Assembly (NCBI RefSeq): GCF_003591175.1
Contig: NZ_QYYG01000008.1
Coordinates: 1 to 64,000, forward strand
Reading direction: 5' to 3'
Length of the DNA stretch: 64,000 bases
Source of the DNA: Serratia inhibens
GTDB lineage: Bacteria > Pseudomonadota > Gammaproteobacteria > Enterobacterales > Enterobacteriaceae
The first letter of the stretch is position 1. The number at the start of each line of letters is the position of its first letter. This document shows positions 49,160-64,000 of this stretch, in pieces. Made by a program: the position numbers and the translations under genes. The notes under the pieces were generated by a model. That model saw nothing but the letters and a program-made list of their open reading frames with translations, was not told where the DNA came from and searched no databases.

Positions 49160-50563
49160 ATGGATTACCTGCCGATTTTCTGCCAACTGCAACACAAAGC
49201 CTGCCTGCTGGTCGGCGGCGGTGAGGTCGCCGAACGCAAGGCGCGTCTGCTGCTGGATGCCGGCGCGTTGCTGACCGTCAACGCCTGCGCATTCAGCCCG
49301 CAGTTCCACGAGTGGGCAGCCCTTGGCCGGGTTACGCTGGTGGAAGGGGAATTCAGTGCGGCATTGCTGGCGGAGAAATGGCTGGTCATCGCCGCAACCG
49401 ATAGGGTCGAGGTCAACGCGCTGGTCTATCAGTGTGCCAACCAGCAACGGGTCTTCTGCAACGTTGTCGATGACCCCAAACGCGCCAGTTTTATCATGCC
49501 GTCGATTATCGATCGCTCGCCGATCATGGTCGCGGTGTCCTCCGGCGGCAAAGCGCCGGTGCTGGCGCGGCTGCTGCGTGAAAAGCTGGAAGCCGTGTTG
49601 CCGCAGCATCTTGGCAAGCTGGCCCAACTGGGCGGTTCATTGCGCCAACGGGTGAAACGGCACTTTACCGGCGCGGGCGCCCGCCGTCGTTTTTGGGAAA
49701 AGCTGTTTGCCCATGACCGACTGGCGCAATCGCTGGCCAATGATGACCCGATATTGGCGGAACGACAGATAGAACAGCTGTTCAACTGCCCTGCGGAGGA
49801 GTCCGGCGAAGTGGTGCTGGTGGGTGCCGGGCCGGGGGACGCCGGTTTGCTGACTCTCAAGGGTTTGCAACAGATCCAGCAGGCCGACGTAGTGGTTTAC
49901 GATCGGCTGGTGTCCGATGAAGTCATGACGCTGGTACGCCGTGATGCCGAACGTATCTTCGTCGGCAAGCGCGCCGGCCATCATTGCGTACCGCAGGAGC
50001 AGATCAACCGCATCCTGCTGGAGCAAGCGCAACAGGGCAAACGCGTAGTCCGGCTGAAAGGCGGTGACCCGTTTATTTTCGGTCGTGGCGGCGAAGAGCT
50101 GGAAACCCTGGCCGATGCCAACATCCCGTTCTCGGTGGTACCGGGTATTACCGCCGCCTCCGGCTGTTCGGCCTACAGCGGCATTCCCCTCACCCATCGC
50201 GACCATGCGCAGAGCGTGCGACTGGTGACCGGCCACGCCAAGAGCGACGGCGGGTTGGACTGGGCGACGCTGGCCGCCGGGCAACAAACGCTGGTGTTTT
50301 ACATGGGCCTGACGCAGGCGGCGGACATCCAGCGCCAGCTGATTGCTCATGGCCTGCCCGCTACCACGCCGGTGGCGCTGGTGGAAAACGGCACTTCATG
50401 CCGTCAGCGGGTGATCGAAGGCGAGCTGAACCAACTGGGGATACTGGCCCAACAGGCCGCCAGCCCGAGCCTGATTATCGTCGGCAGCGTGGTGGGCCTG
50501 CGCAGCAAGCTGAACTGGTTCTCCAGCCGGGAAACGCCGCAAAAGCTGGCTCAAATGGCCTGA
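49160..50563 (+). CDS. cysG: Siroheme synthase CysG
   Basis: The start at 49160 ([20 protein letters not shown]) gives 467 residues. The N-terminal half is the precorrin-2 dehydrogenase/sirohydrochlorin ferrochelatase ([14 protein letters not shown]), and the C-terminal half the uroporphyrinogen III methyltransferase ([31 protein letters not shown]). It makes the siroheme cofactor of NirB and of sulfite reductase, so its place in this operon is functional. Confidence 0.96.
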
Positions 50564-50572
50564 TACCGACGT

Positions 50573-50599
50573 AAAAAAAGCGGCTCATGGCCGCTTTTC
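50573..50599. terminator. Bidirectional cysG/trpS terminator
   Basis: AAAAGCGGC (50576-50584) and GCCGCTTTT (50590-50598) pair around a 5-nt loop with flanking A and T runs, between convergent cysG and trpS. Confidence 0.85.
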
Positions 50600-50614
50600 T
50601 ATCTGCGTAAAGCA

Positions 50615-51619
50615 TTACGGCTGTGATACGAAGCCTACCGCCTGGTAAACCTTCGCCAGCGTTTCCTGAGCGCGCGCACGCGCCTTGGCCGCACCGTCAC
50701 GCATAACCTGCTGCAACAAGGCCTCGTCATTGCGGAAGTTGTGATAACGCTCCTGCAACTCGCCCAGCATACCGGATACCGCGTCGGCAACCGCGCCTTT
50801 CAGGTGGCCGTACATCTGGCCTTCAAATTCGGCTTCCAACTGAGCGATGTTCTTGCCGGTCACACCCGAGAGAATATCCAGCAGATTGGATACGCCCGGC
50901 TTGTTCGCCACATCGTAACGAATCACCGGCGGCTCTTCGGAGTCGGTCATCGCACGCTTGATTTTCTTGGCCACCGCTTTCGGATCTTCCAGCAGGCCGA
51001 TCACGTTATTGCGGTTATCGTCCGACTTGGACATCTTCTTGGTCGGATCCTGCAACGACATCACGCGCGCGCCGGACTTGGGAATGAACGGCTCAGGCAC
51101 CTTGAACACATCGCCGTACAGCGCGTTGAAACGCTGGCCGATGTCACGGCTCAATTCCAGATGCTGTTTCTGGTCTTCGCCGACCGGCACCTGGTTGGTC
51201 TGATACAGCAGAATGTCCGCCGCCATCAGCACCGGGTAACTGAACAGGCCGGCATTGATGTTTTCCGCATAGCGCGCGGATTTGTCTTTGAACTGGGTCA
51301 TGCGGCTCAGCTCGCCGAAATAGGTGTAGCAGTTCAGCACCCAGCTCAGTTGAGTGTGTTCCGGCACGTGCGACTGCACAAAGATGGTGCTCTTTTGCGG
51401 ATCGATGCCGCAGGCCAGATACAGCGCCAGCGTATCCAGCGTAGCCTTGCGCAGTTTTTCCGCGTCCTGGCGTACGGTGATGGCGTGCAAATCGACGATG
51501 CAGTAAATGCAGTCGTAATCGTCCTGCAGCTTAACCCACTGACGCAGCGCACCCATGTAGTTGCCAATGCTCAGTTCACCGGACGGCTGCGCGCCGCTAA
51601 ATACGATGGGCTTACTCAT
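50615..51619 (-). CDS. trpS: Tryptophanyl-tRNA synthetase
   Basis: The 334-residue class Ic synthetase has the HIGH-like segment [14 protein letters not shown] and [14 protein letters not shown] (KMSKS loop). It charges tRNA-Trp. It is the last gene of the aroKB-damX-dam-rpe-gph-trpS block, 2 bp after gph. Confidence 0.97.
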
Positions 51620-51621
51620 GT

Positions 51622-52320
51622 TTAAATTTCCTGATTCTCTAAAGATGACAGCCCAAGAGAGGGCAACAAATCGGCAAAGCGCTCCAACACGCGGTCGGGA
51701 TGGCTCAGGGCTATCGCCTCGCCGTAGTTATAACCGTAGGTCAGCGCAGCGCTTGGGCAACCCGCCCCCTGTGCCGCCTGAATATCGTTGCGCGAATCGC
51801 CCACGAACAGCAGCTCATTGGCGCGCAGGCCAAGCTTGCCGAGCACCAGATACAGCGGCGCCGGGTGCGGTTTTTTTTCCACCACGTCGTCACCGCCGAT
51901 GATCAGCGAGAAATAATCGATAATGCCCAACGCAGTCAGTAACGGCGCGACGAACGGCGTCGGTTTGTTGGTCACCAGCGCCATCGGATAACCCTGTGCA
52001 GCCAGGCGGGCCAGCGTTTCTTTCACCTGTGGGAACAGGCGGCTGCCGCTGTCGACGGTTTGCGCGTAGAAGTGATCGAAGCGTTCACGCAACTGGCGAC
52101 TGTGTTCCGGCGTGGCTTCCACTTCGGCCCAACGCAGCGCACGCTGCACCAGCACGTCGGCGCCATTGCCAATCCAGGTACCGACTCGCGCTTCGCCGGC
52201 CTGCGGCAGGCCCATTTCGGCCAGCGCCAGATCGATGGCTGCCGCCAGCCCCGGCGCGCTGTCTACCAGCGTGCCGTCGAGATCGAAGGCCAGAGCGCGA
52301 ACCGCGCTGAAATCAGCCAT
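51622..52320 (-). CDS. gph: Phosphoglycolate phosphatase
   Basis: The 232-residue HAD phosphatase has motif [15 protein letters not shown] near residue 11, a threonine-containing motif II ([10 protein letters not shown]), and motif [17 protein letters not shown]. It removes 2-phosphoglycolate formed in DNA repair. It overlaps rpe by 8 bp. Confidence 0.95.
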
Positions 52321-52990
52321 GGGTCACTTTCGCCAGTTCGCTGCGCATTTCGTCGATCACTTTGCGGTAATCCGGCTTGCCGAAGATCGCTGAACCGGCG
52401 ACAAACATGTCCGCGCCCGCTGCGGCAATCTCGGCGATATTGTCTACCTTCACGCCACCATCGACTTCCAGACGGATATCGCGACCGCTTTCGTCAATCA
52501 GCTTGCGCACCTGACGCAGCTTATCCAGGGTGCCGTGAATAAACGACTGGCCGCCAAAGCCGGGGTTGACCGACATCAGCAGGATCACGTCGACTTTGTC
52601 CATGACGTAATCCAGGTAGCTCAACGGCGTCGCCGGGTTGAATACCAGACCGGCCTTGCAACCGTGCTCTTTAATCAGCTGAATGGTGCGATCGACGTGT
52701 TCAGAGGCTTCCGGATGGAAAGAGATGTAGTTGGCGCCCGCGGCGGCGAAATCCGGGACAATGCGATCAACCGGTTTCACCATCAGGTGCACGTCAATCG
52801 GCGCGGTGATGCCATAATCGCGCAGCGCCTGGCAAACCATCGGCCCGATGGTCAGATTGGGTACGTAGTGGTTATCCATTACGTCGAAGTGCACCACGTC
52901 GCCGCCAGCGGCCAGCACGTTAGCGGTATCTTCACCTAACCGGGCAAAATCTGCCGACAGAATGGACGGGGCAATCAAAAACTTTTTCAT
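52313..52990 (-). CDS. rpe: Ribulose-phosphate 3-epimerase
   Basis: The start at 52990 ([20 protein letters not shown]) gives 225 residues. It is a TIM barrel with [29 protein letters not shown] and [12 protein letters not shown], the standard metal and catalytic segments. It acts in the pentose phosphate pathway. It lies between dam and gph. Confidence 0.96.
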
Positions 52991-53102
52991 CCGCAATCTC
53001 CAAACGTAGGGTTCGAATTGTTATCCCCTTCGCGTTTCAAGCCGCAGCGTTGCCGGCTGAGCTCGAAATGCACCGGGTATATACGCCGGGGCGTACCCCG
53101 GT

Positions 53103-53915
53103 TTAACGATACAGCGCCAAAAGCTCGTTCACTTTACTGCGACCAAGAATATTGCGGCTGATCGTGCGACGCGCTTTCACCACATACAGCGCAGCATGCT
53201 GGTACCAATCACGCGTCAGCTCGGTGTCATGGTTGGAAATCAATACCGGCACCTGGCTTTCCACAGAAAGCTGACGCGCCATTAACGCCAGGCTCTGTTG
53301 ATCGGCAATGCTGAAGCTGTTGGTGTGGTAAGCGGTAAAATTAGCCGTCGCCGATAATGGCGCATACGGCGGATCGCAATATATCACCGTCCCGCGCTCG
53401 GCTTTTGCCATGGTATCGCGGTAATGCTCACAGACAAACGTGGCGTTGCGGGATTTTTCAGCGAACCAGTACAGCTCTTCTTCCGGGAAGTACGGTTTCT
53501 TGTAACGCCCAAACGGGACGTTGAACTCACCACGCAGATTATACCGGCACAGGCCGTTATAACAGTGGCGGTTCAGATAGAGAAACAGCAGCGCGCGGCG
53601 ATAGGCATCGGCGCTCGTATTAAACTCTTCGCGCAGCAGGTAAAACTGATCCGAATTATTGAATTCATCGGTGAAAAGAAGGCGGGCATCACGCACGAAA
53701 TCATCCGTACGCAGCTTAACGATGTTATACAGGTTGATAAGATCGCTGTTGATGTCGGCGAGAATATAGGCGTCGTACTCCGTGTTCAGGAAGACTGAAC
53801 CCGCACCCACGAAGGGCTCGATTAAGCAGTCGCCCGCCGGCAGATGACGACGGATCTCGTCAACCAGCGGGTATTTTCCACCAGCCCATTTTAAAAAAGC
53901 GCGGTTTTTCTTCAT
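53103..53915 (-). CDS. dam: DNA adenine methylase Dam
   Basis: The 270-residue GATC N6-adenine methyltransferase has the AdoMet motif FVGAGSVFLN and catalytic DPPY at residues 181-184, numbered as in E. coli. It methylates GATC sites for mismatch repair and replication timing. It is separated from damX by 319 bp occupied by a repeat element, which may alter its co-transcription. Confidence 0.97.
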   Translation of the reverse strand: MKKNRAFLKWAGGKYPLVDEIRRHLPAGDCLIEPFVGAGSVFLNTEYDAYILADINSDLINLYNIVKLRTDDFVRDARLLFTDEFNNSDQFYLLREEFNTSADAYRRALLFLYLNRHCYNGLCRYNLRGEFNVPFGRYKKPYFPEEELYWFAEKSRNATFVCEHYRDTMAKAERGTVIYCDPPYAPLSATANFTAYHTNSFSIADQQSLALMARQLSVESQVPVLISNHDTELTRDWYQHAALYVVKARRTISRNILGRSKVNELLALYR

Positions 53916-54234
53916 GCCGTCAGTTAGCTACTTATACAATTCAGAGCGGCGGATTGTACTCTGTTTCAGACAGCACATCAGCGCACAAATTTAAATGATT
54001 AATACCCTTCATCTTTCAAGCTGGAGCCATGTTGGCTGCGTGCAGTTGTTCGACCTGTCCGTGGGCCTCACCCCTCTCGGGACCAGCGCAGGGGGTGTGC
54101 AAATCTGCTCACGGCAAACTTGCCCCCCAACATGGTAGGGGGCAAAAAACTTCACCCCGCTTACACGGCCGCAGCATGTCCATCTCTACCATGCATGCAA
54201 TTCATGCCCTGGCTGCAGCTTGAAATCTATTGGG
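53916..54234. other. damX-dam intergenic region
   Basis: The 319 bp are almost filled by the repeat element at 54000-54237. The remaining 84 bp next to dam hold the start signals of dam. An open frame of 64 codons at 54029-54223 looks like chance. Confidence 0.5.
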
Positions 54235-54237
54235 TTA
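54000..54237. repeat. MITE-like intergenic element between damX and dam
   Basis: The left end (TAATACCC...TTTCAAGCTG, 54000-54023) and right end (CAGCTTGAAA...GGGTTA, 54216-54237) are an imperfect terminal inverted repeat. The right end provides the damX stop codon (TAA, complement of 54235-54237). Inside lies a copy of the repeat family seen at 32230 (GTAGGGGGC from 54135 and ACACGGCCGCAG near 54163-54174). Such elements are common in Serratia and relatives; I infer a non-autonomous element of about 238 bp. Confidence 0.65.
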
Positions 54238-55281
54238 CTTTTTCAGGTCCTGCTGCACCTGACGTACCGGCTTGGCCCACGGCTTTTTCGCCTGAACATC
54301 CGCCGGCAGCGACGCGATTGCACGCTTGGCTTCAGCCGCAGAGGCGTAGTTACCGCTCACCAGCACATACCATGCCTTGCCGTCACGCTGGGTGGCGTAT
54401 ACCTGATAATTCTGCAGTTTCTGCTGCTTGGCGTAGGCGTTCAGCGTATCGGAACGCGAAGCGCTGCTCAGTTGCAGGGTGTAATGGCTGGCCGGAGCAG
54501 ACTGCAGCGAATTGCCGCTGCCGCTGACAACGCCCGTCTTGGCACTCGTCGTTCCCGTTTTACTGCTTGTCGCTCCCGGTTTGGCGGAAGGGGCCGGCGC
54601 ATACACCGTGGTTGGCGCTTTATGCTGCGTAGCCGCAGGTTTGCCGGCGGTTTTTGCCGGTGTCTTATGTTGCTGTGGCGCAGTGCCCTGAACCGGGCGC
54701 GTTGTTTCTTTCGCTGCGGTCGCAGCGGCGCCGTTCATCAGGGTGGCCGGAGCCGTAGGCAGCGTTGAAGCCGGGCCACTCATGCCCTGCGTCGCCGCAT
54801 CAACCTGGCCCTGCTGGGCAGATAACGCATCCGACATATTGCCCGGCAGATCGACACGCTGCTGCGCGCCATCTTGCACCGGCTGCGGTTGCGCTTCCGT
54901 CGGAGTACTGGAGATTGGCGGAACGCTGACGTTTTGCGGCTGTTGCGCAGAAGTGCTGCTCACGCCGTTGTTGTCATTGGTATCGGTCGTGCCGCCCGGA
55001 ACACCGGTGTTACCGGCGGTCAGCGACGAAGAACCGGACAGGTTGATGTCTTTGGCCGCGCCGTTTTGCGCGCCTTCCTGTGCCGCTTCGTGCTTGGTTG
55101 GCGCCTTCAGTGCCGAGCCGATGCCGATAATCAGCAGCAGTAGCACCAGAATACCGATACCAATCATTAAGTGCTGACGTGAAACGGCAAAGCGTGGTCC
55201 CGGAGCCGGTTTACGCGAACGTGCAGGACGACGATCGCTGCTATCAGGTCTGAGATCGTCTTCCGGTTTAAACTCATCCAT
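54235..55281 (-). CDS. damX: Cell division protein DamX with SPOR domain
   Basis: The start at 55281 (MDEFKPEDDLRPDSSDRRPA) gives 348 residues, shorter than the 428 of E. coli. A cytoplasmic tail, one transmembrane helix (about 38-58), a long low-complexity Ala/Pro/Thr/Lys periplasmic linker, and a C-terminal SPOR domain (about 268-345, HYTLQLSSASRSDTLNAYAK) bind denuded septal peptidoglycan. The length difference lies in the linker. The stop codon is part of the adjoining repeat element. Confidence 0.93.
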   Translation of the reverse strand: MDEFKPEDDLRPDSSDRRPARSRKPAPGPRFAVSRQHLMIGIGILVLLLLIIGIGSALKAPTKHEAAQEGAQNGAAKDINLSGSSSLTAGNTGVPGGTTDTNDNNGVSSTSAQQPQNVSVPPISSTPTEAQPQPVQDGAQQRVDLPGNMSDALSAQQGQVDAATQGMSGPASTLPTAPATLMNGAAATAAKETTRPVQGTAPQQHKTPAKTAGKPAATQHKAPTTVYAPAPSAKPGATSSKTGTTSAKTGVVSGSGNSLQSAPASHYTLQLSSASRSDTLNAYAKQQKLQNYQVYATQRDGKAWYVLVSGNYASAAEAKRAIASLPADVQAKKPWAKPVRQVQQDLKK

Positions 55282-55439
55282 CTGAAACCCTCCAACTAGA
55301 GGCAAAAGCCCACCACCGTAGACCTACCGTGGTACGAGCAGATTAACCCGATGATGGCAAAGCGACATCAGTCATGCTTTGCACACTATTAATATAGATG
55401 TAAACGGCGGCTAAGCCACTGTTACTTCGTCCGATTTAC

Positions 55440-56537
55440 TCAGGCATGCCCTTCAGGAAGGCAAGCTGCGATAGAAGCGAGCACCAAATCATGCCCGACT
55501 CCGCTACGAACTTCCGCCTGACCGATAGCCGTCGGCAGTACCAGACGCAGTTCGCCGGCCAACACTTTCTTGTCGCGCATCATGTGCGGCAAATAAGATT
55601 CCGGCGTCATTTCCTGCGGCCCGCACACCGGTAAACCAGCGCGTAACAACAGTGTTTTAATGCGTTCAATATCGTCGGTGGAGAACTGACCGAGACGATG
55701 CGCGGTTTCCGCAGCCATCATCATGCCGGCTGCCACCGCTTCGCCGTGCAACCATACACCATAGCCCATTTCCGCTTCGATCGCATGGCCGTAAGTATGG
55801 CCCAGATTCAGCAGCGCGCGCAGACCGCTTTCGCGTTCATCAGCGGCAACCACCTCGGCCTTCAGCTCGCAGCAACGGCGGATACAATAGCCCAGGGCAT
55901 TCATATCCAGCGCAACCAATGCATCGATATTGTTTTCCAGCCAGACGAAGAAATCACGATCGAGAATAATCCCGTACTTGATCACTTCAGCCAGACCAGA
56001 GGAGAGCTCACGCGCCGGTAAGGTTTTCAGGCAATCCAGATCAACCACCACTGAAGCAGGCTGATAGAATGCGCCGATCATGTTTTTACCGAGCGGATGA
56101 TTGACGGCGGTTTTACCGCCAACGGAAGAGTCCACCTGCGAAAGCAATGTGGTAGGAACCTGAATAAAGCGGACACCGCGCTGATAGCAAGCCGCGGCAA
56201 AACCGGTAAGATCGCCCACCACGCCGCCGCCGAGCGCGATCAATGTGGTATCGCGACCGTGGGGCTTTTGCAGCAGCGCCGAGAACACCAGCTCAAGCAC
56301 GGCAAGGGATTTATACTGTTCGCCATCAGGCAGAATCACCTGATCCACCATTATGCCAGCCTGCTCAAGCACCTTCCGGACCCGGTCCAAATAGAGCGGC
56401 GCCAGGGTTTGGTTGGTGACCAGCATGACCTGTTCACCCGCCTTTAGCGGCATAAAAGAAGCCGGATCGTTAAACAATCCGGCGGCTATGGTAATCGGGT
56501 AGCTGCGCTCCCCAAGCGTTACGGTAATTCTCTCCAT
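55440..56537 (-). CDS. aroB: 3-dehydroquinate synthase
   Basis: The 365-residue NAD- and metal-dependent enzyme starts [20 protein letters not shown]. Landmarks are [42 protein letters not shown] and metal ligands in [13 protein letters not shown]. It catalyses the second step of the shikimate pathway. It lies 96 bp downstream of aroK; a CRISPR-repeat-like hairpin sits in that gap. Confidence 0.97.
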
Positions 56538-56560
56538 TGTCGCGCTCAGTTCTCAATGTG

Positions 56561-56589
56561 TGGTTTATCCCCGCTGCTGCGGGGAACAC
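56561..56589 (-). CRISPR. Solitary type I-E CRISPR-repeat-like sequence in the aroK-aroB gap
   Basis: Read on the minus strand the 29 nt begin GTGTTCCCCGC, have a tetraloop AGCA, and end GCGGGGATAAACCA. Compared with the E. coli type I-E repeat they keep the whole Cas6e stem (TCCCCGC with GCGGGGA) and the ATAAACC handle; I count 25 of 29 identical positions, the differences being at position 2, the loop and the last base. It is a single unit with no second repeat at the usual 61-bp spacing and no cas genes here. It lies 24 bp upstream of aroB in the mRNA sense. Confidence 0.75.
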
Positions 56590-56633
56590 AATCAGTCTTT
56601 CCGCATTTGCCGTGGCGAACACGGAAACCGCAA

Positions 56634-57155
56634 TCAGTTGCTTTCCAGCATATTGATAATCTGGTTGGCAACCACTTTAGCGCTTTGATCGTCGGTGCGG
56701 ATGGTGACATCTGCAATTTCTTCGTATAACGGATTGCGCTCTTTCGCCAGCGCTTCCAGCACTTCACGCGGAGGAGAATCAACCTGCAGCAACGGACGCT
56801 TTTTGTCACGTTGGGTACGGGCCAACTGCTTCTCGATAGTGGTTTCCAAATAAACCACGACACCACGCGCCGACAGACGGTTACGCGTTTCACGCGATTT
56901 AACCGAACCACCGCCGGTAGCCAGCACAATCCCTTGCTTTTCCGTCAGTTCATTAATGACTTTTTCTTCACGATCGCGGAAACCTTCTTCACCTTCCACG
57001 TCGAATACCCAGCCCACGTCAGCTCCGGTACGTCGCTCAATTTCTTGATCGGAGTCGAAGAACTCCATATTGAGTTGCTGAGCTAACTGACGGCCAATAG
57101 TGCTTTTGCCGGCACCCATAGGCCCAACCAGAAAGATATTGCGTTTCTCTGCCAT
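56634..57155 (-). CDS. aroK: Shikimate kinase I
   Basis: The 173-residue kinase starts [20 protein letters not shown] with P-loop GPMGAGKST (11-19), the shikimate-binding segment [20 protein letters not shown], and ATGGGSV. It is the first gene of the aroKB-damX-dam-rpe-gph-trpS block, with its promoter in the 348-bp gap before hofQ. Confidence 0.97.
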
Positions 57156-57503
57156 GTTTTTGGTATTACTAAGACTATTCGTTAATGTTAACCCGCCCCG
57201 CCAATCAAATCAGCGGCGGGACCTAAACTGAAACCTCATGAGCGATAGTGCGAGATCAGACGGAAAATTATCTCAACACTCTTGGTAGTTTGGCAACCGA
57301 ATAAATCGCAATCCACGCCGCAGGAGGGAAACCATACGTTTTTAACGGCGTCTTGGCGTTAACAAAAAACCTCGGTGCTCAATTCGGTAACCCTTGTAAG
57401 CTAAATCGGCCGCAGCGTCAAACGCAGATGCCCCCAAGGCGAGAAAAAAGTGCATCTGCTCATCAACTTTAGGCGATTTCCACCGAACCTGACAGCCTGC
57501 TGC
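57156..57503. other. hofQ-aroK intergenic region
   Basis: The 348-bp gap contains the candidate aroK promoter (57267-57296) and a leader of about 100 nt. No gene or clear repeat seen in the remainder. Confidence 0.5.
57267..57296 (-). promoter_or_regulatory. Candidate aroK promoter
   Basis: On the minus strand TTGCCA (complement of 57291-57296), an 18-bp spacer and GATAAT (complement of 57267-57272) make a plausible sigma70 promoter 112 bp before the aroK start. Confidence 0.45.
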
Positions 57504-58748
57504 TCATGCCTTAATCAATGTTGGAGTAATGAATATCACCAGCTCGCGTCGTTTATGCTGTTTGGTGCTCTGTTTGAACAAGGAACCCAGCAGTGGAACA
57601 TCACCGAGGCCCGGTACCTTGTCCGCTCCCTGGGCGCTCTGACGCTGAAATACGCCGCCCAATACAATGGTTTCACCGTCTTTCACCGTCACCTGGGTTT
57701 TGATCTCCTGCTTATCGATAGCCAGTGCCTCGCCGGCCGACCTGGTGATGGAACGCCCGGGCATGTTCTGGCTGATTTGCAGCGTCAGAGTAATGCGGCC
57801 GTTCGGCAAAATTTTCGGCGTCACCTCCATGCCCAGCACCGCCTCCTTAAACTCCATCGATGTCGCCCCGCTATTGCCGCTACTCACCTCATAGGGAATT
57901 TCCGTGCCCTGTTTAATGCTGGCGGTTTGCTGATGCGCGGTCAGCAAGCGCGGGCTGGCGATGATTTCTACCCGGTTCTCCTGCTCCAACGCCATTAATT
58001 CCAGATCCAGCAGCCGTCCGCCGATGCGCGCCAGATGGAAACCGGCACTGATCGCACTGCGCTCCAGCGGCAACCCGACGTTAAAGCCGCCCATCCGCCA
58101 TGACTTTGCTGCGCCTTCATCCGGGGCCAAACCCCAGCGCACGCCGAGTTCGCGCAAGCTTTCACTGTTAATGGTGACAATATGCGCCGCCAGTTGAACC
58201 TGCGCCAACGGCGCATCCATTTCCGCGATGCGCTTGGTCAATAACGCCACTATTGGGGCGGTATCGCGGATCAGCAGCGCGTTGGTGCGTTTATCCGCCA
58301 CCACGCTGCCGCGTTCGCTCAGCAAAATACTGCCCTGGGCATTCAAATTTTCGGCAATCTCAACCGCATCGGCATGGTTTAACGTCAGAGTTACGCTTTT
58401 CAGAGGTTGCTTTTGCGCCAAAGCCAACTGTTGCCGTTGTTTCTCCTGTTCATCCGGCTCGGGGAACACCATCATGACGTTGCCTTCCAGCGTCATCGAC
58501 AGTTTCCCCATACGCAAGATCACCGCCAGCGCTTGCTGCCAGGGCACGTTATCCAACCGCAATGTCAGATTGCCGCCCACACCTGCAGCGGTAACCACAT
58601 TAAGCTGTTGATAATCCGCCAGCGCCTGTAATACCAGGGTTACCGGGGCGTCCTGAAACGCCAGCGATATCGGTTCCTTGTCCGGCGCTGCAATACCGGT
58701 GGCGGCAATACCCCATAACACCGCACCCAGCCAAGTGCATCCTTTCAT
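57504..58748 (-). CDS. hofQ: HofQ/PilQ family outer membrane secretin
   Basis: The 414-residue protein has a signal peptide (MKGCTWLGAVLWGIAATGIA), an N-terminal secretin/TonB short domain (AFQDAPVTLVLQALADYQQL), an N-type domain, and the C-terminal secretin barrel (TVKDGETIVLGGVFQRQSAQ near the end). It is needed for use of DNA as nutrient in E. coli and homologous to PilQ/ComE of DNA uptake. It is the last gene of hofMNOPQ and overlaps hofP by 4 bp. Confidence 0.94.
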   Translation of the reverse strand: MKGCTWLGAVLWGIAATGIAAPDKEPISLAFQDAPVTLVLQALADYQQLNVVTAAGVGGNLTLRLDNVPWQQALAVILRMGKLSMTLEGNVMMVFPEPDEQEKQRQQLALAQKQPLKSVTLTLNHADAVEIAENLNAQGSILLSERGSVVADKRTNALLIRDTAPIVALLTKRIAEMDAPLAQVQLAAHIVTINSESLRELGVRWGLAPDEGAAKSWRMGGFNVGLPLERSAISAGFHLARIGGRLLDLELMALEQENRVEIIASPRLLTAHQQTASIKQGTEIPYEVSSGNSGATSMEFKEAVLGMEVTPKILPNGRITLTLQISQNMPGRSITRSAGEALAIDKQEIKTQVTVKDGETIVLGGVFQRQSAQGADKVPGLGDVPLLGSLFKQSTKQHKRRELVIFITPTLIKA

Positions 58749-59104
58749 GTTTTTTCTTCCTTATGGTTTCCCAATGTCAGCACCACCGCATTGTCAGCCT
58801 CCGGGCAAGCCGGATCTTCCGGGCCCGCTTTCAATACCAACCGCCCCCCAAGCACCTGTTCCACCTGCCAGCGCCCCCCCAGCAGGCTTTGCCCAGACTC
58901 TAAACGCAACCACTGCCCTGCGGGCGTGACCACCCAGGCATGGCGCGACGTCGCCTGCCCGACGGTACCCTTCAAAAGCCAGTTTGCCGGCGATTCCCTC
59001 TGCGGTGGGCAATCAGTCACGGTTGGCGGCATAAAGGGATTGCGCGGTTGCGCCATCAATGCGCACGGCAGCAACAGCCACCAAACCCCGTAACCTTTAT
59101 TCAT
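58745..59104 (-). CDS. hofP: HofP (PilP-like) DNA utilisation protein
   Basis: The ATG at 59104 gives 119 residues with a signal peptide (MNKGYGVWWLLLPCALMAQP). The remainder, with WLLKGTVGQATSRHAWVVTP, is PilP-like. It overlaps hofO by 8 bp and hofQ by 4 bp. The family is weakly conserved; the identity rests on position in the five-gene unit. Confidence 0.85.
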   Translation of the reverse strand: MNKGYGVWWLLLPCALMAQPRNPFMPPTVTDCPPQRESPANWLLKGTVGQATSRHAWVVTPAGQWLRLESGQSLLGGRWQVEQVLGGRLVLKAGPEDPACPEADNAVVLTLGNHKEEKT

Positions 59105-59618
59105 CCGCATTTACCAGCGCGGCGTCTGCCGGCGTGTCGTGTAAAACGAAGTGCGCCATCAGATCTTCAGCCTGTGCTTCAAGGGTTATTTGATCGATGC
59201 GCGATGAGGAGGGCAACGCCTCCAGCAGCCGCAATAAACCGTCGTAATGGATATTCAGGTTCAGGGTTTGACGCTGCGGTTTCTCCTGCTGCTGCCAGCG
59301 TTGCAATGCGGCGCCCGCCCGTTGCAGTACTTGCGTCAAATCATCATGAACGGCGGGCCTGGACGCGTTCTGCCGCAGACGAAGATTAATCTCGTCCAAC
59401 GTCGGCATCTGGGCCAGCTGCTGTTTTAACGGCTCAATCTGCTGAATCAGACGCTGTTGCTCCGCCAGCGTCTGCTCCCGCTGCTGCCATTTACCGTGCA
59501 ACAGCGGCATGCCGAACAGCAAAGCCAGGCAGCCCAACACCAACCACTGCGCGGCCAGCGCCTTCCAACCCGGCAAATCCAGCCAGCGCCTTGTCCAGAG
59601 TGGCAACGGCTTATCCAT
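59097..59618 (-). CDS. hofO: HofO (PilO-like) protein
   Basis: The 173-residue protein has a single N-terminal membrane helix (about 22-40, QWLVLGCLALLFGMPLL), a coiled coil (about 45-75) and a periplasmic PilO-like domain. It overlaps hofN and hofP by 8 bp each. PilO homologues build the inner-membrane alignment complex of type IV pilus systems. Confidence 0.85.
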   Translation of the reverse strand: MDKPLPLWTRRWLDLPGWKALAAQWLVLGCLALLFGMPLLHGKWQQREQTLAEQQRLIQQIEPLKQQLAQMPTLDEINLRLRQNASRPAVHDDLTQVLQRAGAALQRWQQQEKPQRQTLNLNIHYDGLLRLLEALPSSSRIDQITLEAQAEDLMAHFVLHDTPADAALVNADE

Positions 59619-60147
59619 TCAGCCCCCATTGCGCCATCAGCGTGAATGAAAACAGACCATCCTTGCGCTGTACCACCTCAGCCAGCCGACAGTACTGCAA
59701 TAGCGGCAGGGCCGCCAACTGCTGCTCAAACCGGATGATCGCCCCATAACGGCGGCTGAGGCCCCGCAGCGTAATTTTTTGTGCGTCGCTTTCCAGCACG
59801 GTAAGCCACAGCGGCGCGGGAAGAACGGCTGAGAGCTGTTGTAACAGCTGCAGGTAACGCCGGTTATGCGCCTGGTTCTTCTCCTGCCTGTCCGCCAGTT
59901 CGGTCAAGCGCGCCACACGCGCCATCATCTGCCGGGTTTGCTGGTAGCGCTCTGCCAACCCCACCTGCTGACGGGACAGCGTCAACAGAGCCTCATGCCG
60001 TTGCGTCTGTTGGTGACTCATCAGGCCAAAAACAGCCGCCATCGCTGCCAACATCAACGTCAGTTGCAACACGAAAAGGCGTAACCAGAAAGCACAGCGG
60101 CGGCGCTGGGCCAGCCTACGCCAGGGCAGAAGGTTAACCTGAAACAT
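59611..60147 (-). CDS. hofN: HofN (PilN-like) protein
   Basis: The start at 60147 shares one base with the hofM stop (TGATG) and gives 178 residues. It starts MFQVNLLPWRRLAQRRRCAF, the PilN signature (xNLLPWR), followed by a transmembrane helix and coiled coil. PilN binds PilM on the cytoplasmic side. It is third from the end of the hof unit. Confidence 0.89.
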   Translation of the reverse strand: MFQVNLLPWRRLAQRRRCAFWLRLFVLQLTLMLAAMAAVFGLMSHQQTQRHEALLTLSRQQVGLAERYQQTRQMMARVARLTELADRQEKNQAHNRRYLQLLQQLSAVLPAPLWLTVLESDAQKITLRGLSRRYGAIIRFEQQLAALPLLQYCRLAEVVQRKDGLFSFTLMAQWGLNG

Positions 60148-60989
60148 CAGTTGTCCCCGCTGCGCAGCGCCAGCCCACCGGCCAGCACAAATGCCCCCGG
60201 CAACCGGGGTAACGGGGGTCGCAGTTGGTTGAATGCGCTGAACGGCGACCATGGCAAACACCCCGGCGGAGGCAGCTCATCCGCCACACTGCTGTAATAA
60301 ACCTGATGTTCACCGATTGAGGGGCAGGCTGCATGCATCGCCGCCAACGCCTGGCTTGCCCCGCCCACCTCGCCCTCCGGTAAAATGCCATAGGCAAAGG
60401 CCGCGCGACGTGGGGCTGCCCACAGCCACTCCCGTTCGAGACGGTGCAACAACCCTGCTTCGGCCGGTACGCCTGCGGCAAACGCCATCATGTGCAGGGC
60501 ACAGGGAGTGATATCGACCACCTGCGGCCGCAAATCGGCCTGGCGTAAACAATGCAGCCACTGCTGCAACTCTTGCTGGCGCGCGGCGGTGAGCAACAGA
60601 GCGGCGGAGTCAGGTGGCGATGGTCGGTAGTCCAGCGCCAGTGTCTGGCTGTCCAGCGGGAACTGCTTCAGTCCCTGGCTGGTGATATAATCGCCGCGCG
60701 CCGGCTCTTTCAGCCGGGCATCCGGCATCGGCATCTGATGCTGCAAAACCCGCTGGGCGGGCAAAGCAATGCGTAAGCAAATATGTCTTGGCAACAGGAC
60801 CCGCCATTGTCGCAGTGCGCGAACCAGTACCTCGGGCTGCTCGATACACCCTTCGCGCAACACCGCTTGCGGCAGCCTTTGTTGCCACCAATGACGCAGT
60901 TGCCAACCGTTGCGCCGGCGCTGTGCCGCCAGGGCGCAGATGCGGTTACTTTGTATATCCAGCCCCACCTGCCATGCTTGAGAGAACAT
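60147..60989 (-). CDS. hofM: HofM (PilM-like) protein
   Basis: I place the start at 60989 (MFSQAWQVGLDIQSNRICAL, 280 residues); GGAGGT lies 10 nt upstream, and the ATG at 61007 overlaps that site. It is a PilM-like actin-fold protein, first gene of hofMNOPQ. It is divergent from mrcA with 122 bp between starts, the conserved arrangement in enterobacteria. Confidence 0.86.
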   Translation of the reverse strand: MFSQAWQVGLDIQSNRICALAAQRRRNGWQLRHWWQQRLPQAVLREGCIEQPEVLVRALRQWRVLLPRHICLRIALPAQRVLQHQMPMPDARLKEPARGDYITSQGLKQFPLDSQTLALDYRPSPPDSAALLLTAARQQELQQWLHCLRQADLRPQVVDITPCALHMMAFAAGVPAEAGLLHRLEREWLWAAPRRAAFAYGILPEGEVGGASQALAAMHAACPSIGEHQVYYSSVADELPPPGCLPWSPFSAFNQLRPPLPRLPGAFVLAGGLALRSGDN

Positions 60990-61111
60990 ATTTCGCCCGA
61001 CCTCCATATCGTCAGATGATAAAAGAACATATCCATGTTGCAGGCTTGCCTTTATACTACCGCGCGGTTGTTTATAAACTGCCCAAATGACATGAAAATG
61101 GGAAATCTCAG

Positions 61112-63670
61112 GTGAAGTTCGTAAAGTATTTACTAATCCTTGCAGTGTGTTGCATCGTGTTGGGGGCAGCCTCGATTTTTGGCTTGTACAAATATGTCGA
61201 GCCACAGCTGCCTGACGTTGCAACGCTGAAAGACGTACGGCTGCAGATACCGATGCAGGTTTACAGCGCCGATGGCGAACTGATCGCCCAATACGGTGAA
61301 AAACGTCGTATTCCGCTGAAGCTGAACCAAATTCCGCCGGTGATGGTGCATGCGTTTATCGCCACCGAAGACAGCCGTTTCTATGAACATCACGGCGTCG
61401 ACCCGGTCGGCATCTTCCGTGCCGCCTCTATCGCACTGGTCTCCGGCCATGCGTCACAGGGGGCGAGTACCATTACCCAACAGCTGGCGAGAAACTTCTT
61501 TTTAAGCCCGGAACGCACCCTGATGCGCAAGATCAAGGAAGCCTTCCTGGCGGTACGCATCGAACAGATGCTGACCAAAGATGAAATCCTCGAACTGTAC
61601 CTGAACAAAATCTACCTGGGTTACCGCGCCTACGGCGTGGGTGCTGCAGCGCAGGTGTATTTCGGCAAAGACGTCAGCCAGCTGACCTTGAGCGAAATGG
61701 CGACCATCGCCGGCTTGCCTAAAGCGCCGTCAACCTTCAACCCGCTTTACTCGCACGATCGCGCCGTGGCTCGCCGTAATGTGGTGCTGTCGCGCATGCT
61801 GGACGAGCATTACATCACTCAGGATCAGTACGATCAGGCCCGTGGCGAAGATCTGGTGGCTAACTACCATGCGCCGGAGATTAACTTCTCTGCACCTTAT
61901 CTCTCCGAGATGGTGCGTCAGGAGATGATCAAGCGTTACGGTGAAAATGCCTATACCGACGGTTACAAGGTCTATACCACCGTCACCAAAAAGTTGCAGT
62001 TGGCGGCTCAGGAGTCGGTGCGCAACAACGTGCTGGCGTATGACATGCGTCACGGCTACCGCGGCCCGTCCAACGTGCTGTGGAAAGTGGGTGAGGCGGC
62101 CTGGGATCAAAAACAGATCGTCGACTCACTGAAAAACTTGCCGAATTATGGCCCGCTGGCGCCTGCGGTGATCACCCGGGCGAGTGCCGAGGAAGCAACG
62201 GCCATGCTGTCCGATGGCAGCAATGTCGCCCTGCCAATGGCCAGCATGCGCTGGGCGCGGCCGTATAAATCCGACACGCAACAGGGCTCAACGCCAAAAC
62301 GCGTGACCGACGTGGTGCAGGCCGGCCAGCAGGTGTGGGTACGCAAGGTGAATGAAAGCTGGTGGCTGTCGCAGGTGCCGGACGTCAACTCGGCCCTGGT
62401 GTCGATCAACCCGAACGATGGCGCCGTTAAAGCGCTGGTCGGCGGGTTCGACTTCAACCAGAGCAAGTTCAACCGCGTTACCCAGGCGCTGCGCCAGGTC
62501 GGTTCCAACATCAAACCGTTCCTGTACACCGCAGCGATGGATAAAGGCCTGACTCTGGCCACTATCCTGAACGATCTGCCGGTCACACGCTGGGATGCCG
62601 GTGCCGGTACTGACTGGCGGCCGAAGAACTCGCCGCCAACCTACGACGGCCCTATTCGCCTGCGTCAGGGGCTGGGACAATCGAAGAACGTCGTGATGGT
62701 GCGCGCCATGCGTGCAATGGGCGTCGACTACGCGGCGGAATATCTGCAGCGTTTCGGCTTCCCGGCGCAAAACATCGTACACACCGAATCTCTGGCGCTG
62801 GGTTCGGCTTCGTTCACCCCGATGCAACTGGTGCGCGGCTATGCGGTACTGGCAAACGGCGGTTATCTGGTCGACCCGTATTTCATCACCAAAATCGAAG
62901 ATGAAACCGGCAATACCGTGTTTGAAACCAAACCCAAAGTCGTCTGCGACAGCTGCAATTTGCCGGTTATTTATGGCGATACCCACCGTGCTGCCGTGCT
63001 TTCCGACGACAACGTCGAAAACGTCGCGACGTCGCAGGAAGGCGGTAACGGTAACGTGCCGATGCCGCAACTGGAACAGGTTACGCCGGCTCAGGTACTG
63101 CAGGATGGCGATCTGCAATATGCGCCGCATGTGATCAGTACCCAGTTGGCGTTCCTGATGCACGATGCGTTGAACAGCAACATCTTTGGCGAACCGGGTT
63201 GGATGGGTACCGCATGGCGCGCCGGGCGCGATTTGAAGCGGCATGATATCGGCGGCAAAACCGGTACCACCAACAGTTCAAAAGACGCCTGGTTCTCCGG
63301 CTATGGCCCGGATACCGTCACTTCGGTATGGATTGGCTTCGACGATCATCGCCGCGACCTCGGCCGCGCAACGGCTTCCGGCGCCATTGAAGATCAGATC
63401 TCCGGCGGCGAAGGCGGTGCGAAGAGCGCGCAACCGGCATGGGATGATTTTATGAAGGTCGCACTGGAAGGTATTCCTGAGCAGAAAGTCACCCCACCGC
63501 CGGGCATTATCAGCGTCACCATCGACAAAAGCAGCGGCAAGCTTTCCGGCGGCGGCGGCGGTAGCCGTTCCGAATACTTTATCGAAGGTACTCAGCCGAC
63601 AAGCTACCCGACACGGGATACCGGCACGACATTGACGGACCCCGGCGGCGAAAGTCACGAGCTGTTCTGA
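61112..63670 (+). CDS. mrcA: Penicillin-binding protein 1A
   Basis: The GTG start at 61112 gives 852 residues. One N-terminal helix (MKFVKYLLILAVCCIVLGAA) anchors it. The glycosyltransferase domain has EDSRFYEHHGVDPVG and GASTITQQLARNFF, then an ODD/OB insertion, and the transpeptidase domain with Ser465 in SNIK and GKTGTTNSSKDAWF. It polymerises and cross-links peptidoglycan. It is divergent from hofM and convergent with nudE. Confidence 0.96.
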   Translation: MKFVKYLLILAVCCIVLGAASIFGLYKYVEPQLPDVATLKDVRLQIPMQVYSADGELIAQYGEKRRIPLKLNQIPPVMVHAFIATEDSRFYEHHGVDPVGIFRAASIALVSGHASQGASTITQQLARNFFLSPERTLMRKIKEAFLAVRIEQMLTKDEILELYLNKIYLGYRAYGVGAAAQVYFGKDVSQLTLSEMATIAGLPKAPSTFNPLYSHDRAVARRNVVLSRMLDEHYITQDQYDQARGEDLVANYHAPEINFSAPYLSEMVRQEMIKRYGENAYTDGYKVYTTVTKKLQLAAQESVRNNVLAYDMRHGYRGPSNVLWKVGEAAWDQKQIVDSLKNLPNYGPLAPAVITRASAEEATAMLSDGSNVALPMASMRWARPYKSDTQQGSTPKRVTDVVQAGQQVWVRKVNESWWLSQVPDVNSALVSINPNDGAVKALVGGFDFNQSKFNRVTQALRQVGSNIKPFLYTAAMDKGLTLATILNDLPVTRWDAGAGTDWRPKNSPPTYDGPIRLRQGLGQSKNVVMVRAMRAMGVDYAAEYLQRFGFPAQNIVHTESLALGSASFTPMQLVRGYAVLANGGYLVDPYFITKIEDETGNTVFETKPKVVCDSCNLPVIYGDTHRAAVLSDDNVENVATSQEGGNGNVPMPQLEQVTPAQVLQDGDLQYAPHVISTQLAFLMHDALNSNIFGEPGWMGTAWRAGRDLKRHDIGGKTGTTNSSKDAWFSGYGPDTVTSVWIGFDDHRRDLGRATASGAIEDQISGGEGGAKSAQPAWDDFMKVALEGIPEQKVTPPPGIISVTIDKSSGKLSGGGGGSRSEYFIEGTQPTSYPTRDTGTTLTDPGGESHELF

Positions 63671-63673
63671 TAG

Positions 63674-63704
63674 AAAAGGGCCAGAGAAATCTGGCCCTTT
63701 TTTT
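63674..63704. terminator. Bidirectional mrcA/nudE terminator
   Basis: AAAAGGGCCAGA (63674-63685), loop GAAA and TCTGGCCCTTTT (63690-63701), followed by TTT on the plus strand. Confidence 0.9.
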
Positions 63705-63729
63705 ATCTACGGAAATAGGAGGTCGATGT

Positions 63730-64000
63730 CTAACGCGAGCCGCGCAGAAATGCCTCGGTAAGAAACAGTGCGCTGACATTGCGCGCCTCGCGGAAATCCG
63801 GCTCCGCCAGCAATGCCATCATGTCGGCTATCGGCCAACGCACCTGCGGCAAGGGTTCAGGCTCGTCGCCTTCCAGGCTCTGCGGATAAAGATCGTGCGC
63901 CAGCACAATATTCATTTTGCTGGAAAAATAGGACGGTGCCATGGTCAGTTTGCTGAGAAAATCGAAACGTTTGGCGCCAAAACCCACCTCTTCCATCAGT
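63730..64000 (-). CDS. nudE: ADP compounds hydrolase NudE, C-terminal part (runs off window)
   Basis: The last 89 codons are present and the frame is open to position 64000. MEEVGFGAKRFDFLSKLTMA, SYFSSKMNIVLAHDLYPQSL and LEGDEPEPLPQVRW are the conserved end of NudE, a Nudix hydrolase of ADP-ribose, NADH and Ap3A. The Nudix box itself lies outside the window. Position next to mrcA is conserved. Confidence 0.94.
   Translation of the reverse strand, partial: LMEEVGFGAKRFDFLSKLTMAPSYFSSKMNIVLAHDLYPQSLEGDEPEPLPQVRWPIADMMALLAEPDFREARNVSALFLTEAFLRGSR

Follow-up and report, generated by a model that had tools for sequence, protein, structure and literature searches.

A lone type I-E CRISPR repeat in the aroK-aroB gap, probably kept in the Serratia group as an intercistronic mRNA hairpin

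Why does a single type I-E CRISPR repeat stand between two genes of a core metabolic operon, and what keeps it there? The window, by which we mean the whole analysed stretch of 64,000 nucleotides, carries on its minus strand aroK (shikimate kinase I, 173 aa) at 56634..57155, followed at 55440..56537 by a gene of 365 aa, which, from what is established on the aroK-aroB operon, we take to be aroB (3-dehydroquinate synthase). The aroK stop codon (56636-56634) and the aroB ATG at 56537 are separated by a gap of 96 nt (56538..56633, minus strand). In this gap the minus strand reads GTGTTCCCCGC-AGCA-GCGGGGATAAACC-A. The lone repeat is the 28-mer GTGTTCCCCGCAGCAGCGGGGATAAACC (56562..56589, minus strand, hence read from 56589 to 56562), followed by 24 nt (56561-56538) and then by the aroB start.

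The earlier note, made from the window alone, had read this unit as a lone type I-E repeat that lies in crRNA sense 24 nt ahead of aroB, and had proposed searching the genome for cas genes and comparing the array repeats. The search found cas6e together with the other I-E cas genes and two arrays whose repeats match. The genome (G000) comprises 5.38 Mb in 29 contigs; the lone repeat lies on contig C28, while the cas6e match, the other cas genes and both arrays lie on C23. Cas2e, Cas1e, Cas6e, Cas5e, Cas7e, Cse2 and Cse1, all encoded beside the arrays, exceed the NCBIfam cut-offs. For Cas3 the core and HD domain models are above cut-off, and the full-length I-E-type model is below it (480.8 versus 569). 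The Cas6e protein is similar to E. coli CasE, whose structure is solved (E 3.3e-15).

The C23 array repeats read GTGTTCCCCGC-GCCA-GCGGGGATAAACC, with GTCA or GCTA as other loops. The lone repeat is identical to the commonest of them at 26 of 28 positions; both mismatches fall in the loop, and all 24 non-loop positions agree. It also shares with the arrays the crRNA-sense transcription, the stem and the handle core ATAAACC. Unlike them, it is single, has neither leader nor spacer, lies inside a metabolic operon, carries the loop AGCA and shows A rather than G behind AAACC (at position 29 the lone repeat has A, 56561, and four array starts of this genome have G). The reading as a lone type I-E repeat is thus borne out: the unit has the sequence of an I-E array repeat, and its 7-bp stem with a short loop is that of a Cas6e-substrate hairpin.

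The earlier note had also held that a hairpin of this exact sequence is unlikely to arise by chance, and the background agrees. A scan of the genome for TTCCCCGCNNNNGCGGGGATAAACC with up to three mismatches gives 59 matches, that is, 58 in the two C23 array regions and the lone repeat, and the reversed-pattern control gives none. The 1037 hairpins of the window (seven paired positions, both strands, G-T allowed) are identical to the repeat at 6.4 non-loop positions of 24 on average (sd 2.6). The lone repeat scores 24; the runners-up are the same place on the other strand (16) and the next independent hairpin (15). The 12-mer core GCGGGGATAAAC alone is not rare, since with one mismatch 0.3 occurrences are expected per window and 25 of 100 shuffles contain it at least once; it is the whole repeat unit that is rare. 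Identity and position of the repeat are directly supported by these comparisons.

A CRISPR array, with at least two repeats about 32-33 nt apart and a leader, is rejected for this site: the repeat is a single copy, and within three mismatches the genome has no other outside the C23 arrays. Leaders are found solely at real arrays and relics, and inspection beside the lone repeat revealed no leader-like sequence.

The element is not peculiar to this strain. Our comparison covers 41 Serratia-group genomes, of which 30 form the genus sample and the others belong to the genera g87 (one), g17 (two), g78 (seven) and g32 (one). Forty of them carry a recognisable copy in the aroK-aroB gap, namely 30/30 of the genus sample and 10/11 of the further near relatives; the 41st genome, G115, has a strongly diverged sequence at the site, which is still able to form seven pairs. 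All 24 non-loop positions equal the repeat in 17/41 genomes. With G-U counted, 37/41 have 7/7 stem pairs, and no row lacks any of the five lowermost pairs. In four small-genome relatives the stem persists despite the loss of one base and with G-U pairs. Loops are highly variable (AGCA, AGTA, GTT, GTTG, CGCT, TGTT, GCCGCGAT and others). Among 80 named loci, the hairpin motif occurs at most 420 nt after aroK in all seven of Serratia and in none of the other 73. A family search gave matches in 217 of 295 genomes; 30 loci were taken from these and L065-L092 were read, and the element is absent on reading from the 20 loci of other genera (L073-L092). Absence outside Serratia refers to these 73 named and 20 further loci.

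This spread, which is observed directly, rules out a recent strain-specific insertion. The earlier note had listed an array remnant and off-target integration by Cas1-Cas2 among its alternatives, and this genome does hold matching arrays together with Cas1-Cas2. However, the same site is occupied in 40 of 41 genomes, there is no second repeat nearby within three mismatches and no leader-like sequence adjoins. The genus-wide position, together with the lack of a neighbouring repeat, makes a recent remnant unlikely, and we regard a recent event of either kind in this strain as hardly credible; either may apply as an ancient route.

How old is the element, then? In a tree of aroK and aroB with 59 rows, the 47 Serratia-group rows (41 genomes and six named duplicates) cluster with support 100/99. 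At the deepest split among them, G060 with the rubidaea group (99/93) stands apart from the remaining 44 rows (100/97), inside which G115 is placed with weak support (83/54). The Fitch root state on this tree is GTGTTCCCCGC...GCGGGGATAAACCAC, which agrees with the array repeat at every one of the 24 non-loop positions; the less repeat-like forms within the clade are derived states.

The element also changes slowly. Over its 26 sites it averages 1.15 steps per site and the 134 four-fold sites of aroK and aroB average 3.94, so that it is about 3.4 times slower; 0 of 100000 draws are as low. With the four cas6e-positive genomes removed, the values are 1.08 and 3.54. The ratio of element to four-fold rate is 0.16 in g78, 0.25 in the rubidaea group, 0.26 in the marcescens-type clade, 0.37 in the small genomes and 0.62 in G060; in the G115 lineage (1.61) the element drifts faster than four-fold sites. 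The loop positions are fast (8, 3, 7 and 3 steps), and the AACC of the handle region is nearly unchanging across relatives. Hairpin 1, a larger hairpin predicted immediately upstream within the gap (56598..56627, minus strand), and the tail before aroB are likewise slow (1.59 and 0.93 steps per site); the constraint is therefore not special to the element.

Since the reconstructed ancestor equals the repeat at 24/24 non-loop positions, we infer descent from CRISPR as the best reading of this match, and a I-E repeat was probably captured in the ancestor that the Serratia group shares. Serratia has CTGA, the element, CTGA and GCGCGAC, where sister genera have CTGA or CTGG directly followed by GCGCGAC. 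The sister genera themselves have a short hairpin in the aroK-aroB gap, and when the Serratia gap minus the element or minus hairpin 1 is aligned to five sister-genus gaps, z ranges from -1.0 to 3.0 both ways. Insertion and change in situ thus align alike, which leaves room for a coincidence: an ordinary GC-rich intercistronic hairpin, evolved in place from the smaller one of the sister genera and merely resembling an I-E repeat. The less repeat-like sequences of G060 and G115 would fit it too. We nevertheless think such a coincidence quite unlikely, as the agreement covers 24/24 non-loop positions, 11 of them outside the stem, in both the window genome and the inferred ancestor, and the less similar forms are nested in the clade as derived states.

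Mobile DNA as the origin of the gap sequence is rejected. A query of 111 nt from the gap has partial matches in four phage and four plasmid records (29-45% covered), and no phage or plasmid record covers 80% of it. A pattern scan of viral sequences found two solitary I-E repeats, with flanks other than aroK-aroB.

Single I-E repeats can stand alone, as solitary copies elsewhere show. One of them (L193) adjoins a transposase and another (L220) a PAPS reductase gene. L201 (G245:C3:1548-1575, minus strand) lies directly after the lpxK stop codon and upstream of a CTP_transf_3 (KdsB-like) gene, and so gives another example of an ectopic repeat within a core operon. L200 (G316:C8:25238-25265) and L191 (an IMG/VR contig) have an identical single repeat (loop ACTC) within shared flanks, between a KilA-N gene and a BRO/anti-repressor gene; this placement is as would be expected for a prophage-borne type I-E Racr. 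A further copy is found beside a HicB-like/HTH gene on another IMG/VR contig (L190, 1374-1401).

What does the element look like as RNA? Its core is a 7-bp stem, UCCCCGC/GCGGGGA, closed by the 4-nt loop AGCA at 56575-56578 (56568..56585, minus strand), which emerges both from folding and from the pairs in relatives. The minimum-free-energy fold predicts an extended hairpin (56557..56590, minus strand), with an outer helix UGUGU (56590-56586)/ACACA (56561-56557) and six unpaired nucleotides, UAAACC. The 50-nt element RNA folds at -19.9 kcal/mol (z -4.5; 1/200 shuffles as good), and the whole gap folds as two neighbouring hairpins (z -2.5; 4/200 shuffles as good).

Stem pairing is intact in 97.8% of the alignment cells. 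Covariation, which the earlier note had proposed looking for in aroK-aroB gaps, is weak: there is a double change in one pair only, 91 of 500 shuffles reach the observed counts, which is not significant, and RNAalifold on the alignment predicts just five pairs with a covariation term of -0.15. Intercistronic mRNA hairpins, that is, stem-loops between stop and start codon that are conserved within a genus, occur in bacterial operons. The element shares their position and genus-level conservation, and differs from them in its CRISPR-repeat sequence and its near-frozen, non-covarying stem. The stem is conserved in sequence beyond the need of a purely structural hairpin. Its near-frozen state is the clearest hint that the base sequence may be read as well as the shape, with recurrent Cas6e as one candidate reader.

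Other signals in the region were considered. A Rho-independent terminator (GC-rich hairpin and T run) is rejected, with no terminator-like match at 56562-56589; elsewhere in 56300-57300 there are three such matches versus 1.2 expected. No Rfam family reaches its gathering score in 50000-64000. Promoter-like sites number two in the scanned kilobase versus 0.7 expected, and a weak promoter-like match (9/12) overlaps the aroB start (56556-56527).

The gap varies among relatives also outside the element. Hairpin 1 is absent in the two rubidaea-group genomes and G323, as though deleted between direct repeats of CTGATTG. In G299 and G322 (L184, L185) an extra piece immediately behind the aroK stop, upstream of both hairpins, lengthens the gap by about 120 nt to 217-221 nt, and the element is kept. 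Before aroB (window 56555-56545, minus strand) sister genera have AAGAAGGT, and most Serratia-group genomes have GAGAAC, a weaker-looking ribosome site. The rubidaea group has GGGGAAC there, which by eye could pair with GTTCCCC of the element.

Does the element need Cas6e? The cas6e profile TIGR01907 finds a match in 2/30 genomes of the genus sample and 2/11 other relatives, 4/41 in total, absence here meaning absence by this one profile in partly draft assemblies. The stem of the aroK-aroB element is intact in all four cas6e-positive genomes. In G324 a divergent I-E cas6e (L189, G324:C33, 89.7 bits) has nearby repeats that read CTATTCCCCGCGCCAGCGGGGATGAACCG, and the lone aroK-aroB element begins with an unusual GTATT, perhaps by chance. 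Three genomes that have no cas6e match carry relics, a leader plus repeat in G002 and in G115 and a repeat pair in G011; therefore, I-E systems were once present and then lost, while the aroK-aroB copy stayed. The earlier note had named as counter-evidence relatives without a I-E system that have merely an unrelated generic hairpin at this place. Such relatives in fact keep the same sequence, and the CRISPR identity stands.

Hence, we consider it likely that an ancestral I-E repeat is kept in the Serratia group as an intercistronic mRNA hairpin that does not need Cas6e, the independence following from the fact that most carriers have no detectable cas6e. We suggest that the repeat already stood in the aroK-aroB gap of the Serratia-group common ancestor and has been retained as a fixed hairpin in the mRNA, where it comes second in a tandem of two between the cistrons. 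Placed between the stop codon of aroK and the start of aroB, this rigid stem-loop would act through the RNA, most likely by tuning how stable each half of the message is or how aroB is translated.

In the I-E-positive minority the hairpin should in addition be a ready-made substrate of Cas6e. The enzyme of I-E systems leaves an 8-nt 5' handle and remains on the hairpin, as described in the part of PMC5965380 available to us. By this 8-nt rule the predicted cut falls between G56569 and A56568, and therefore 31 nt before aroB. Cas6e would cut after the stem, stay on the 3' end of aroK and free an aroB message with a 31-nt leader. The predicted accessibility of the aroB start changes upon cutting from 0.54 to 0.57 in this strain, from 0.41 to 0.57 in G002 and from 0.44 to 0.41 in the rubidaea group.

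The earlier note had proposed that Cas6e could cut exactly between the two genes. This is plausible in the present strain, since it carries cas6e, the other I-E cas genes and matching arrays; as the reason why the element exists it is not supported, given that most carriers have no cas6e match. The broader form of this idea is a Cas6e-dependent switch, maintained as I-E systems come and go, in which Cas6e separates aroK from aroB and so alters aroB output. The cas genes of this strain, the stem with its near-frozen sequence and not just its pairing, the hardly changing AACC of the handle, the intact stems of the cas6e-positive genomes and the relics of past arrays are all in keeping with such a switch. 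Yet 37/41 genomes have no cas6e match, the low rate persists when the cas6e-positive genomes are left out and extends to the small-genome relatives, and the predicted start accessibility is little changed by cutting. We thus regard the switch as unlikely to be what maintains the element.

A repeat outside arrays may also act on the Cas proteins themselves. Solitary repeats of viruses act as RNA anti-CRISPRs (Racr), and they inhibit by what lies upstream of the Cas6 cut, according to the portion of PMC10651486 that we could consult; viral solitary repeat units (SRUs) are likewise described in the accessible part of a review (PMC8616872). With the units of PMC10651486, so far as its available text describes them, the element shares that one repeat is transcribed, has no neighbours and is expected to bind the matching Cas6. 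It could accordingly be imagined as a resident RNA anti-CRISPR, which would capture Cas6e and Cas7 on the tail of the aroK mRNA and blunt incoming I-E systems. The tail is indeed the part that lies upstream of the predicted cut, and two viral contigs carry solitary I-E repeats. But cas6e and the element coexist in four genomes, of which G000 has long arrays, and the Racrs treated in that text sit on mobile elements, viruses or plasmids, whereas the Serratia element is chromosomal, genus-wide and found mostly in genomes with no cas6e match. A resident anti-CRISPR appears very improbable to us. A Racr on a mobile element is rejected: the repeat is solitary, but it lies in the aroK-aroB gap of 40/41 relatives, and the 80% coverage is not reached by any phage or plasmid record.

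CreTA offers another comparison. The available part of PMC9458426 describes CreTA repeats as degenerated and tied to their own Cas system. Like CreTA/CreA and scaRNA, the element is a repeat outside an array that is kept on the chromosome. These known RNAs are degenerated, tied to the resident Cas and act as guides, as far as that part goes, whereas the Serratia element is almost undegenerated. Assignment to CreTA, in which a degenerated repeat pair encloses a guide that represses a toxin beside cas, is rejected, as one undegenerated repeat lies on C28 and cas lies on C23, with no second repeat within three mismatches.

Orphan arrays of Serratia are CRISPR sequences without cas genes, in which they are like the element; a survey of Serratia CRISPR loci (PMC9981886, accessible part) counts them as called by CRISPR finders, and the accessible part makes no mention of a single aroK-aroB repeat. 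Full-text searches, with papers judged from their titles and opening lines of abstract and with most subscription journals outside their range, found none that describes this element and none on a CRISPR repeat with aroK and aroB.

Last, there is a bolder proposal, to which we give little credence. The domesticated repeat would be a permanent processing and decoy site in this core operon throughout the genus: incoming Cas6e would split aroK from aroB, the capped aroK tail would soak up Cas6e and Cas7, immunity would thereby be coupled to aromatic amino-acid synthesis, and repeated gain of I-E systems would maintain the stem sequence.

Ectopic CRISPR repeats are known as a kind; what is new here is genus-wide retention without Cas6e. 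The known cases, as the consulted parts of PMC9458426 and PMC10651486 present them, either reside on viral or plasmid DNA or are degenerate and linked to the Cas system of their host. The Serratia repeat is almost unchanged, is fixed within a core operon of metabolism and is constrained in genomes that mostly have no cas6e match. If it is retained as we suggest, the aroK-aroB gap of Serratia would be a natural case for the reuse of CRISPR parts as plain RNA structure, and for the fate of a host mRNA once a matching Cas6e arrives.
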